64,000 nt of DNA from Fodinibius salicampi. GTDB lineage: Bacteria; Bacteroidota; Rhodothermia; Balneolales; Balneolaceae. Position 1 is the stretch's first letter, and every line of letters starts with the position of its first letter. Location of the stretch: contig NZ_BAABRS010000001.1 in assembly GCF_039545095.1 (NCBI RefSeq), positions 310,001 through 374,000 of the forward strand, in the 5' to 3' direction. Both the position numbers and the translations under genes were made by a program. Below, in pieces: positions 32,190 through 52,620 of the stretch. The notes under the pieces were generated by a model. It did no database searches. It was given only the letters and a program-made list of their open reading frames with translations, and was not told the origin of the DNA.

Positions 32190-33563
32190 ATGAGTAATCG
32201 CGAGCCGACCATAATGGTAACGGATGATGAAAAAAGCATTCGTAATTCACTGCGGGAAATTCTCGAATTTGAGGATTATCGGGTTATTGAGGCAGAAAGT
32301 GGGGATCAAATATTCGAGATTTTATCTGATGAGTCGGTCGATTTGATGTTGCTGGATATCAAAATGAAAGGGATGGACGGGATAGAGGTCCTTACCAGGC
32401 TAAAAGAGGAGAATTACAGATTTCCGGTTATCATGATATCAGGACATGGTAATATTGAGATTGCCGTGGAGGCGACAAAGAAGGGGGCTTTTGATTTTAT
32501 CCAAAAACCACCAGACTTGAATCGGCTTTTAGTGAGTGTGCGCAATGCTCTTGATCAGCAGCGGCTCTCCGAAGAAAATAGAAATATTCGTTCCCAGCTG
32601 CCGGAAGTCCCGGAAATTATTGGAGAAAGCCCTGCAATCAAGAAAATTAAGAAGACAATTGATAAGGTTGCGAAAACCAATTCAAGGGTATTGGTAACCG
32701 GCGAAAATGGAACGGGAAAAGAGCTTGTTGCCCGGTGGATACATGAAAAAAGTCAGCGCAGCAGCGGAGCATTTGTAGAAGTTAATTGTGCTGCTATTCC
32801 TACAGAATTGCTTGAAAGTGAACTTTTTGGCCACGAAAAAGGAGCTTTTACCGGTGCTCATGATCAACGAATCGGTAAATTTGAACAAGGGGACGGAGGA
32901 ACCCTGTTTCTGGATGAAATTGGGGATATGAGTGCCGATGCCCAGGCTAAAGTTTTACGGGCATTACAGGAGAGCGCAATTATTCGCGTGGGAGGAAGCA
33001 AAAAAATATCCGTGGATGTACGGGTTATTGCTGCGACAAATAAAGATTTGATCGAAGAAATAGAGGCCGGAAACTTCAGAGAAGATTTGTACCACCGACT
33101 TAATGTCATTCCAATACATGTGCCGCCCCTGCGTAAAAGGCGCGAAGATATTCCTGCTCTTGCCAAACGGTGGCTAAACCATCTTGCTGAAGAGGATGTC
33201 TTGTTTTCAGCGGTATCTTTTTCCGATGAGGGACTTGAAGCGCTTAAACAACAGCATTGGTCCGGGAATGTACGAGAGTTACAGAATGCTGTGGAACGAT
33301 TGGGACTACTGGCAGAAGATGACATAATTGGTGCCGAGGATGTAGAAAGTATGACGCGCACTCCGAAAAAGAAGTCTGATCAGACGGATGATTTATTGGA
33401 TCAGAAAACTACCTTCCAAGGTTTTAAAGAATCGGCAGAACGGTTATTTTTGCTGCGAAAACTTGAAGAAAATGATTGGAATATTTCACAAACCGCCGAA
33501 GCTATTGATATTCAGCGCAGTCATATGTATAACAAAATGAAAAAGTACAATATTGAGCGATGA
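32190..33563 (+). CDS. sigma-54-dependent response regulator (NtrC family)
   Basis: 457 residues. Receiver domain 1-120 with the acidic pair D12/D13, phospho-acceptor D56 (LLDIKMKG) and FIQKPP lysine; AAA+ domain about 140-375 with Walker A GENGTGKE, the GAFTGA sigma-54 contact loop and FLDEIGDM Walker B; C-terminal Fis-type HTH (NISQTAEAIDIQRSHMYNKMKKY). It activates RNA polymerase containing RpoN. No histidine kinase gene is beside it, so it is an orphan regulator. It may act on the sigma-54-type promoter before grpE, but nothing here proves that. It starts 10 nt after dacB. Confidence 0.94.
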   Translation: MSNREPTIMVTDDEKSIRNSLREILEFEDYRVIEAESGDQIFEILSDESVDLMLLDIKMKGMDGIEVLTRLKEENYRFPVIMISGHGNIEIAVEATKKGAFDFIQKPPDLNRLLVSVRNALDQQRLSEENRNIRSQLPEVPEIIGESPAIKKIKKTIDKVAKTNSRVLVTGENGTGKELVARWIHEKSQRSSGAFVEVNCAAIPTELLESELFGHEKGAFTGAHDQRIGKFEQGDGGTLFLDEIGDMSADAQAKVLRALQESAIIRVGGSKKISVDVRVIAATNKDLIEEIEAGNFREDLYHRLNVIPIHVPPLRKRREDIPALAKRWLNHLAEEDVLFSAVSFSDEGLEALKQQHWSGNVRELQNAVERLGLLAEDDIIGAEDVESMTRTPKKKSDQTDDLLDQKTTFQGFKESAERLFLLRKLEENDWNISQTAEAIDIQRSHMYNKMKKYNIER

Positions 33564-49953: not shown

Positions 49954-50346
49954 ATGGCAAATTTTAATCCTTCCGGTATTAATCATATTACCATTCGCGT
50001 GAACGAAATTGAGCGTGCGGAAGAGTTTTACGGAGAAATATTAGGTTTCGAGCAGGTTCGTAAAATGGGGAAAAGCATGGCCGTGTATCGCGTGGGTGAA
50101 GAAGATACTCTTGTACTGGTTGAAGCGGAAACCAGCTACGATCCATCCTCGCGTGATTACCGGGTTGACCATTTTGGATTTTACCTGGATTCGGAAGAGG
50201 AGGTGGATGAAATGGCGGAGTATTTCCGGGAAAAGGAGGTCACCGTTTTAAGCGGACCGGCCAACCGGAAAAGAGGACGCTTTTTGTTTATCTCCGATCC
50301 CGACGGGAATATGCTTGAATTTTTCTATGAAGAAGATGAGGAATAA
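49954..50346 (+). CDS. VOC-family (glyoxalase/dioxygenase fold) protein
   Basis: 130 residues in two beta-alpha-beta-beta-beta modules. The first module starts with GINHITIRVNEIERAEEFYGEILGF, the second with DHFGFYLDSEEEVDEMAEYF and ends with DPDGNMLEFFYEED. The likely metal ligands are His10, the histidine in DHFGF and the glutamate in MLEFFY. The substrate cannot be read; members range from glyoxalases to antibiotic-resistance proteins. Monocistronic between rsmI (divergent) and grpE. Confidence 0.88.
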   Translation: MANFNPSGINHITIRVNEIERAEEFYGEILGFEQVRKMGKSMAVYRVGEEDTLVLVEAETSYDPSSRDYRVDHFGFYLDSEEEVDEMAEYFREKEVTVLSGPANRKRGRFLFISDPDGNMLEFFYEEDEE

Positions 50347-50404
50347 TAAATACCTCTGCTAAGGACGTTTGTATAACAGCATGACAGTATGGACCCTTCC
50401 AGAG

Positions 50405-50436
50405 TTGACAGACTAAACCTACGTAAGTTTGTCAGC
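50405..50436. promoter_or_regulatory. imperfect inverted repeat upstream of the grpE promoter
   Basis: TGACAgACT (50406-50414) and AGTtTGTCA (50426-50434) match in eight of nine positions as an inverted pair. The site ends 24 nt before the -24 element of the sigma-54-type promoter. It could be bound by an enhancer-binding regulator, though such sites are often farther upstream. Confidence 0.4.
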
Positions 50437-50457
50437 TCAATCGGGGGTATGTGGCAA

Positions 50458-50473
50458 TGGCATGTTATTTGCA
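50458..50473 (+). promoter_or_regulatory. sigma-54 (-24/-12) promoter of grpE-dnaJ
   Basis: TGGCAT-N5-TTGCA with the GG and GC dinucleotides exactly 12 nt apart, matching the RpoN consensus TGGCAC-N5-TTGC at all but one position. Predicted transcription start near 50484, giving a leader of about 40 nt before the grpE ATG at 50526. Confidence 0.72.
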
Positions 50474-50525
50474 TGCTATAAACCGAAAGAAATAAACAGA
50501 ACTAAATCATTACAGTTATTTGTAC

Positions 50526-51128
50526 ATGGGTGAATCTAAAGAAGAATCCACAAAAGAAGTAAAAGAACAGGAAGTTGATCAGCAGCAGGAATCGGCCGAG
50601 CTAAAAGAACAGCTGACAGAAAAATTTCAAGATCTTGATGAAGAAGAGCTCCGTGAGCGGTTAGTTAACCGGGAGCAGGAATATCATGAACTGGAAAAAG
50701 AGCTGACTAAAACGCAGGAGCAGCATCTGCGGAAAGCTGCTGAACTTGAAAATTATCGCAAGCGCGTGCAGCGTGAACGTTCCCAGATCTATGAAACGGC
50801 CAAAGCCAATGCACTGGATGACTTTCTGGATATTAATGACGACCTGCGCCGTACCCTGAAGGCTGCCGAAGATGTTGAAGTGAATGATACCTTTATGGAT
50901 GGCCTGTTGCTGGTAGCTAACAAATTTGAGGAAGTATTAAATAAGTACGGAGTTGAACGTATTGATGAAGTAGGCGTTCCCTTTAATGTTGATCTGCACG
51001 ATGCCATGATGCGCAAAAAACCTGAAGATGAAAACGTCGGCAGCGACGTAGTACTGGAGGTCATTGAGAATGGCTATCGTATGGGCGAACGTACGATCCG
51101 TCACGCAAAAGTAATTGTAAGCGAATAA
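50526..51128 (+). CDS. grpE: nucleotide exchange factor GrpE
   Basis: 200 residues from the ATG at 50526 (the TTG two codons upstream is less likely). It releases ADP from DnaK during protein folding. The first 60 residues are acidic and charged, a long coiled-coil follows (YHELEKELTKTQEQHLRKAAELENYRKR), and the C-terminal beta-domain includes VEVNDTFMDGLLLVANKFEEVL, GVPFNVDLHDAMM and VLEVIENGYRMGERTIRHAKVIVS. dnaJ follows after 25 nt. dnaK is not here. No visible CIRCE element; a sigma-54-type promoter lies upstream. Confidence 0.96.
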   Translation: MGESKEESTKEVKEQEVDQQQESAELKEQLTEKFQDLDEEELRERLVNREQEYHELEKELTKTQEQHLRKAAELENYRKRVQRERSQIYETAKANALDDFLDINDDLRRTLKAAEDVEVNDTFMDGLLLVANKFEEVLNKYGVERIDEVGVPFNVDLHDAMMRKKPEDENVGSDVVLEVIENGYRMGERTIRHAKVIVSE

Positions 51129-51153: not shown

Positions 51154-52314
51154 ATGTCCAAACGCGACTACTACGATGTTTTAGGCGTCAGCAAAGATGC
51201 CTCGGAAGATGAAATTAAGAAAGCCTATCGAAAGCGGGCTATGAAGTTTCATCCGGATCGCAATTCGGATGACCCCAAAGCAGAAGAGAAGTTTAAAGAG
51301 GCTTCGGAAGCCTATGAAGTACTCAGCGACAGTCAAAAGAGGCAGCGCTACGATCAGTATGGCCATCAAGGCCTGAATGGCGGTAGTGGCTTTGGCGGCC
51401 GCGGTGGCGCCGGATTCGAGGATATGGGCTTTGAAGATATCTTCAGCCGGTTCAGCGATATCTTTGGAGGCGGCGATCCTTTTGGCGGGGGACAGTCCCG
51501 TGGACGCCGTTCTCCCGGTCAGACCGGCTCGGATATGAAGCTTCGCATTGAGCTGAGCCTTGAAGAAATAGCGTTTGGTACGGAGAAAAAGCTTAAGGTC
51601 AAAAAACAGGTGAAATGTGATGCCTGTAACGGTACCGGCGCGGAAACCGAAGACGATTTCGAAACCTGCGGAACCTGCAACGGTATGGGTCAGGTGCGGC
51701 AGGTACGCAAAACGATGCTGGGACAAATGGTTAATGTGCAGCCTTGTCCCGAGTGCCAGGGTGAAGGACGTATTATCAAGGAGAAATGTTCGAAATGCCA
51801 CGGTGAGGGACGGTATAAAGGCAAAGATGAGATAAAAGTGCGTGTCCCTTCCGGCGTTTCCGAAGGCAATTATATTACCATGCGCGGACAGGGTAATGCC
51901 GGGAAACGCGGCGGCGATGCCGGCGACCTGGTCATCCTGATCGAAGAGAAAGAGCATAAGCATTTCGAACGGGACGGCAACGATATCTATTACGATCTCG
52001 TATTAAGCGTACCGGATGCCATCCTGGGTACCGAGGTGAAAGTGCCTACTCTTAAAGGAAAGGCTAAAATTAAGATTGATGAAGGTATTCAGCCCGGCAA
52101 GCTGCTGCGGATGAAAGAGAAAGGTATCCACGGCATGAAGCGATCGGGCATTGGCGACCAGTATGTACGGGTTAATGTCTACATTCCTAAAGATCTGTCT
52201 GGCGAGGAGCGTGAACATATCGAAGCTCTGAGAGGAAACGACCACTTTGAGGCTTCCAATAAAGAAGACGACGGCAAAGGCTTCTTCTCCAAGATAAAAG
52301 ACGTATTCACTTAG
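51154..52314 (+). CDS. dnaJ: co-chaperone DnaJ
   Basis: 386 residues. J-domain 1-70 with HPD in [10 protein letters not shown]; a glycine/phenylalanine-rich linker (71-125); zinc domain with four CxxCxGxG repeats ([32 protein letters not shown]) at about 150-220; and C-terminal substrate-binding domains. It delivers unfolded proteins to DnaK and stimulates its ATPase. It lies 25 nt after grpE and is thus in the same operon. The C-terminal tail is lysine/aspartate rich. Confidence 0.97.
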
Positions 52315-52531: not shown

Positions 52532-52620
52532 CTGCTAACTGCTAACTGCTAACTGCTAACTGCTAACTGCTAACTGCTAACTGCTAACTGCTAACTGCTA
52601 ACTGCTAACTGCTAACTGCT
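52532..52620. repeat. perfect 7-bp tandem repeat (CTGCTAA)n
   Basis: Nearly 13 uninterrupted copies of the heptamer CTGCTAA fill 52532-52620 and stop exactly at the stop codon of the minus-strand ATP-grasp gene. The array is noncoding. Perfect copies suggest recent slippage and likely length variation between strains. Confidence 0.95.

Follow-up and report, generated by a model that had tools for sequence, protein, structure and literature searches.

Which promoter reads the chaperone genes grpE and dnaJ of Fodinibius salicampi, and which regulator acts on it? The stretch of 64,000 nucleotides that we analyzed (the window) carries both genes on the + strand, grpE at 50526-51128 (Pfam GrpE, 7.7e-39) and dnaJ, with its zinc-finger domain, at 51154-52314 (Pfam DnaJ, DnaJ_C and DnaJ_CXXCXGXG). 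A first-pass annotation had placed a sigma-54 promoter and an inverted repeat ahead of grpE and had pointed to an NtrC-type regulator encoded in the same window. This finding is real and larger than was stated, whereas the inverted repeat and the named regulator are unsupported.

The -24/-12 site upstream of grpE

We took the ATG at 50526 as the start of grpE (the list of open reading frames puts a TTG at 50520 first), which leaves a gap of 179 nt after a glyoxalase-like gene (49954-50346). The promoter, TGGCATGTTATTTGCA, lies within this gap at 50458-50473 on the + strand, with GG at 50459-50460 and GC at 50471-50472, and 52 nt separate it from the ATG. Its letters, position and exact GG-N10-GC spacing are all borne out: the site is the sole exact match to TGGCAYRNNNNTTGCW in the 64-kb window and agrees with TGGCAY-N5-TTGCW at 0 mismatches. 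From the established geometry of sigma-54 promoters, transcription would start at 50484 on the + strand if C50472 is position -12. A search of the genome for rpoN had been suggested as a check, and the gene is present (Sigma54_DBD, 5.7e-59, at C4:293669-294142). Just 3′ of dnaJ, at 52532-52620, the 7-base sequence CTGCTAA is repeated perfectly in tandem, in 12.7 copies.

A single exact match of this kind is weak by itself, and the genome-wide count is uninformative as evidence, with 8 matches to TGGCAYNNNNNTTGCW against 6 for the reversed control. The promoter carries weight because it is conserved and because of where the matches fall, not through the match itself.

We therefore turn to conservation in the order, in which GrpE was detected in 110 of 116 genomes (family f1 of our genome lists is the Balneolaceae, f2-f5 are the other families). 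DNA upstream of grpE was available from 107 genomes, three genomes obtained twice being counted once; it was lacking for G035, G041 and G092, where the gene lies at the contig start, and G038 gave only 137 bases. The search required GG-N10-GC and tolerated up to 4 substitutions elsewhere; when the pattern was loosened, 23 of 550 shuffled upstream sequences satisfied it. The site was intact in 74/76 Balneolaceae, in line with the comparison of relatives that had been proposed, and decayed in the remaining two. Invariance of GG and GC among the 74 is a product of the search demand, but the T before GG, the CA after GG and the TT before GC (T0, C3, A4, T11 and T12) were likewise invariant in 74/74 though not required. 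These two, G091 and G100 (L038 and L071), keep a recognizable copy of the promoter with the -12 GC changed to GT, possibly a natural loss of sigma-54 control.

Chaperone genes and the apparent exchange with hrcA

We then considered where the exact matches fall. Five of the eight exact TGGCAY-N5-TTGCW sites of the genome begin 39-101 nt ahead of a chaperone gene. Apart from grpE-dnaJ, the targets are a second dnaJ (DnaJ-like, 344 aa; C4:110407, minus strand) and three hsp20 genes: hsp20-A (142 aa; C4:112719, minus strand), followed by an HtrA-type protease gene, hsp20-B (146 aa; C3:428785), and hsp20-C (144 aa; C6:19550), which is followed 110 nt downstream by dnaK (HSP70, 1.3e-268). The other three sites lie antisense inside a gene, between convergent genes, and 137 nt ahead of a gene whose product has a multicopper-oxidase domain; clpB showed a poor match only (three substitutions). 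If 10 kb of both strands is assumed to count as chaperone upstream sequence, five of eight would arise by chance with a probability of ~2e-13. This distribution argues that the grpE-dnaJ promoter very probably belongs to a small chaperone regulon.

Conservation of the individual targets varied. The promoter of the DnaJ-like gene, with an upstream sequence of its own, was found in 11/12 genomes of the window's genus, and the gene after it was DnaJ-like in all six cases read (the window genome and five others of the family). For hsp20 we sorted the genes by protein sequence and searched those 30 of 40 matches that came with DNA (GG-N10-GC, up to 4 substitutions). The site was present in 12/12 hsp20-A genes (3-4 substitutions) and in 6/6 hsp20-C genes, or 7/7 when the window genome (L158) is counted. 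It was seen in 1/5 hsp20-B genes, the site of the window genome having no counterpart in 4/4 relatives, and in 0/7 genes of a fourth hsp20 type.

A contrasting arrangement was observed in the sister families, where the same operon is hrcA-grpE-dnaJ, the usual layout for control by a repressor. In the order, hrcA was detected in 24/116 genomes and in 0/80 Balneolaceae; the window genome, too, gave no PF01628 (hrcA) match. In 23 of these hrcA-bearing genomes the gene immediately precedes grpE; in the remaining one, G035, the two stand on different contigs. Among the 107 genomes with upstream DNA, the site was found in 0/23 with hrcA versus 79/84 without it. Five of the 79 site-bearing genomes belong to family f4, genus g23, with sites resembling TGGTATGAAATTTGCA. 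In G015, the sixth genome of this genus, both hrcA and the site are missing.

A sample of the phylum, made of 60 stretches and 6 loci picked from 158 genomes with one to several per family, gave the same alternation. Here the HrcA C-terminus was sought with a custom pattern instead of a family search, and the site with a looser pattern. Of 65 loci long enough, 37 had an HrcA-like C-terminus upstream of grpE and no site, 11 had the site without hrcA, and 17 had neither. The 11 include 6/6 genomes of family f22, probably the Flavobacteriaceae, with TGGCAGTAC(T/A)TTTGC and TGACA just upstream. Thus hrcA and the site were never found together, either in the 107 genomes of the order or at the 65 loci of the phylum. 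Because related genomes are not independent, neither set of counts should be read as a level of significance; they outline a pattern. Balneolaceae appear, from these sequence comparisons, to use positive control by sigma-54 in place of the hrcA repressor.

The DNA element recognized by HrcA, CIRCE, has the consensus TTAGCACTC-N9-GAGTGCTAA. As the first-pass annotation had noted, it is absent from the window, here at up to 3 mismatches. At the same tolerance none was present in the loci examined, including four around hrcA, and the element may therefore differ in this phylum.

Could the -24/-12 match be coincidental, with an ordinary promoter reading grpE-dnaJ? Chance matches are indeed expected several times per genome, as the reversed control illustrates. 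Against this stand the near-complete conservation of the site in the family and the concentration of exact matches at chaperone genes, and the gap itself offers little to replace it. It contains no match to a sigma-70-type promoter and none, at up to 2 mismatches, to the Bacteroidota housekeeping type. For the sigma-32 (RpoH) consensus, CTTGAA-N12-17-CCCATNT, the interval 50347-50526 gave a single match, with 4 mismatches; none of the three types is convincing there. We regard a coincidental match as hardly credible. The sigma-54 promoter ahead of grpE-dnaJ is almost certainly real and, judged from sequence, very probably functional; RpoN control of the operon, as first proposed, is strongly supported by the conservation (74/76), the common regulon and the mutual exclusion with hrcA.

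The upstream half-site and the candidate activator

The inverted repeat described earlier has a left arm, TGACAGACT, at 50406-50414 and a right arm, AGTTTGTCA, at 50426-50434, both on the + strand. Its letters are present as reported, but its distance from the -24 element is 23 nt instead of 24, and its standing as a feature did not hold. Repeats at least as good (8/9 pairs, loop 3-15) occurred in 67 of 914 stretches of 70 nt from the window. In an alignment of 74 Balneolaceae promoters anchored at the -24 element, the left arm appeared in a single one, the window's own, and is probably due to chance; the right arm alone was conserved. We thus rejected the repeat as a palindromic operator.

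What the alignment revealed instead is a second conserved block, GNAANNTTGTCA, upstream of the -24 element and at an almost constant distance from it. In the window it corresponds to the promoter-proximal half-site GTAAGTTTGTCA (50423-50434, + strand), 23 nt before the -24 element, a predicted activator site. TGTCA was found at a gap of 22 or 23 nt in 54/74 grpE promoters, and TGTCA, TGACA or TGTGA at 21-24 nt in 67/74; the other seven, G080 included, had none of the three at this distance. A distal TGACA (50382-50386, + strand; gap 71) is a possible, weak second site, and TGACA at gap 71 or 72 occurred 12 times among the 74 promoters. All five chaperone promoters of the window genome carry TGTCA, TGACA or CGTCA 20-31 nt before the -24 element, a pattern noticed post hoc. 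We further sought TTGTCA-N22-24-TGGCAYGNTATTTGC in all named genomes. It matched 27 stretches, of which 22 were titled Balneolaceae, Fodinibius, Aliifodinibius, Balneola, Rhodohalobacter or Bacteroidetes; the five in unrelated bacteria were taken for chance.

As a separate observation, the hsp20-C promoters (L216, L218, L221, L224, L225 and L158) share a conserved inverted repeat, roughly TGACGyAATAATGCCAATACGTCA, that ends 24 nt before the -24 element; in the window genome its left half is harder to make out.

The sigma factor itself is widespread: rpoN scored over the family cut-off in 107/116 genomes of the order, or 108 with one weak match. Eight genomes gave no RpoN match, four of them Balneolaceae in which the grpE site is present. 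One of these four, G073 (genus g11), is 98% complete and has the grpE site and two enhancer-binding proteins without an RpoN match; an assembly gap can explain this and is the only explanation that we found.

Of the 8 matches to PF00158 in the window genome, four are strong enhancer-binding proteins. They are the NtrC-type response regulator of the window (32190-33563, + strand; Pfam Response_reg, Sigma54_activat and HTH_8), a receiver-less activator of 434 aa encoded outside the window (C1:907184-908488) by a gene that overlaps lptE, one protein beside a histidine kinase and one in a flagellar cluster. The receiver-less activator was found in 79/80 Balneolaceae and also in 27/36 genomes of the other families, some of which bear hrcA. 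It has intact sequences to which we give, from general knowledge, the names Walker A, GAFTGA (or GSFTGA) and HTH, and its variable linker holds a conserved stretch that reads LIYRALVELRNDI in the window genome. Structure prediction on 12 sequences of this protein gave a mean pLDDT of 43 and was left unused.

Two lines of evidence bear on the choice between these activators. In G080, G093 and G094 (96%, 90% and 89% complete) the receiver-less activator is the sole enhancer-binding protein detected at E <=1e-30, and the grpE site is kept. The link to the NtrC-type regulator of the window, as first suggested, is unsupported: that protein went undetected in these three promoter-bearing genomes, and we judge that it is probably not the regulator.

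The other line comes from genus g5, in which the site upstream of grpE reads TGTCAGAATGAAGTAACTTTGTCA or near, while TGTCAGAATGACGTAAG stands on the other strand upstream of the gene for the receiver-less activator. We searched 12 whole genomes of six genera for TGTCAGAATGANGTAAS with one mismatch and obtained 16 matches, against 1 for the reversed control. Nine of these immediately precede the activator gene (genera g2, g3, g5 and g7), five at grpE (g5) and two elsewhere; three genomes of g6 and g9 gave no match. The motif was derived from g5 sequences, so that its recurrence there is no test, and its rarity elsewhere is. Similarly, we compared the upstream regions of grpE and of the activator gene directly in 29 genomes, with 20 shuffles each. 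The same element was picked in 6/7 g5 genomes (13-16 of 18 bases), the score beating all 20 shuffles in four, tying in G022 and falling short in G104. Outside g5 nothing convincing emerged in most genomes, and in the window genome the best match was 11 of 18 versus a shuffle mean of 11.9. A motif common to grpE and the activator gene is thus clear in g5 alone. In the window's own genus (L230-L241) the activator gene has a conserved upstream sequence of its own, roughly TATGTATCTAAAgCAGTAATTATTACCTTTA, unlike the g5 motif.

How firmly does this single out the receiver-less protein? The NtrC-type regulator is a complete activator of its class, and a close relative (59-73% identity) occurs in at least 8 of the 17 genomes checked, whose activators were read in part. 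It went undetected, moreover, not only in the three genomes already named but also in G088 (93% complete), where the receiver-less and the flagellar-type activator were detected and the grpE site is again kept. With assemblies of 89-96% completeness, a gap is possible in one of these four. Activation of the promoter by the NtrC-type regulator is on these grounds improbable, and the receiver-less protein is the better candidate. A separate question is whether the half-site serves the activator at all, or some other protein (a co-activator, an IHF/HU-like factor or a repressor) with the true activator bound elsewhere or acting from solution. Activators of this class usually bind about 80-150 bp upstream of the promoter; the half-site is nearer, the gap being 22-24 nt in most grpE promoters, and the seven promoters that lack its variants point the same way. 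Yet the extended g5 motif is nearly confined to grpE and the gene of the activator itself, as autoregulation predicts, and we consider that a different occupant of the half-site is unlikely, if less so than control by the NtrC-type protein. We retain the receiver-less activator beside lptE as the probable regulator of the chaperone promoters.

Proposed mechanism and related systems

A sigma-54 promoter ahead of grpE-dnaJ, a small chaperone regulon and a receiver-less activator would together account for the locus, and we give this whole explanation a probability of about three in four, on genomic comparison. In such a scheme RNA polymerase with RpoN would bind 50458-50473 as a closed complex and the 434-aa activator would occupy the half-site GTAAGTTTGTCA (50423-50434) and perhaps another copy of it further upstream. 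The activator would open the complex with ATP when the cell meets a protein-folding problem, so that heat or misfolding would presumably induce the operon. Since it has no receiver, it would be controlled by a partner acting in trans that keeps it inactive, as is the case for PspF.

Several known systems resemble this scheme in part. HrcA/CIRCE control of hrcA-grpE-dnaK-dnaJ has target genes in common with it. There, a repressor acts on an ordinary promoter; here, by contrast, 80/80 Balneolaceae gave no hrcA match and the window has no CIRCE element. PspF of the phage-shock regulon has no N-terminal regulatory domain and serves a stress-responsive sigma-54 regulon; the candidate activator is similarly receiver-less, with a predicted regulon of stress type. 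It differs from PspF in its long linker with a conserved stretch before the DNA-binding end, and its score of 298.9 lies below the NCBIfam PspF cut-off of 443.55.

The closest parallel comes from Flavobacterium psychrophilum, for which a 2021 start-site map reports, in the parts considered here, starts with -24/-12 sequences of sigma-54 type (SM4) at groES-groEL, lon, dnaK, grpE-dnaJ, htpG, skp and clpB (PMC9723704). As in Balneolaceae, sigma-54 promoters stand at chaperone genes including grpE-dnaJ and there is an lptE-linked regulator: the map includes, under another promoter type, a probable sigma-54-dependent regulator with lptE after it, and leaves the activator open among three PF00158 proteins (PMC9723704). 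F. psychrophilum differs in that it belongs to another branch of the phylum and its gliding genes have the same promoter type; the hsp20 genes and the second dnaJ, targets here, do not appear in the portion of its table that we compared (PMC9723704). A second report, in the sections considered, finds GroEL, IbpA, GroES, GrpE, DnaJ and DnaK enriched among predicted sigma-54 promoters of Bacteroidota and Planctomycetota, with the highest enrichment in Flavobacteriia (PMC12316311). Those sections name no activator, no activator site and no exchange with hrcA, and neither Balneol nor Rhodotherm turned up in a word search of its text (PMC12316311).

RpoN-dependent control of chaperones had been called unusual at the outset. 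This is only partly right, given the mapped starts of F. psychrophilum (PMC9723704) and the predictions across Bacteroidota (PMC12316311), as far as these sources were covered. The general idea is thus already in print; the Balneolaceae case, the exchange with hrcA and the candidate activator are new, the literature searched (subscription journals mostly outside its scope) containing no mention of such control in Balneolaceae, of the half-site, of an exchange with hrcA or of an assigned activator.

On a wider scale, we put forward tentatively that Bacteroidota may possess a heat-shock system of their own, in which a dedicated, receiver-less, lptE-linked activator would govern small heat-shock proteins and the DnaK machinery from a near-fixed site adjacent to the promoter, would be held in trans by a chaperone or other partner until misfolded protein titrates that partner off, and would have replaced HrcA on more than one occasion. 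Since a candidate can now be named for the activator and for its binding site, and the target promoters are listed, the identity of the activator of sigma-54 chaperone promoters in Bacteroidota becomes directly testable. The alternation of hrcA and sigma-54 at grpE would mean that one core stress response is run, depending on the family, either by a repressor or by an obligate activator.
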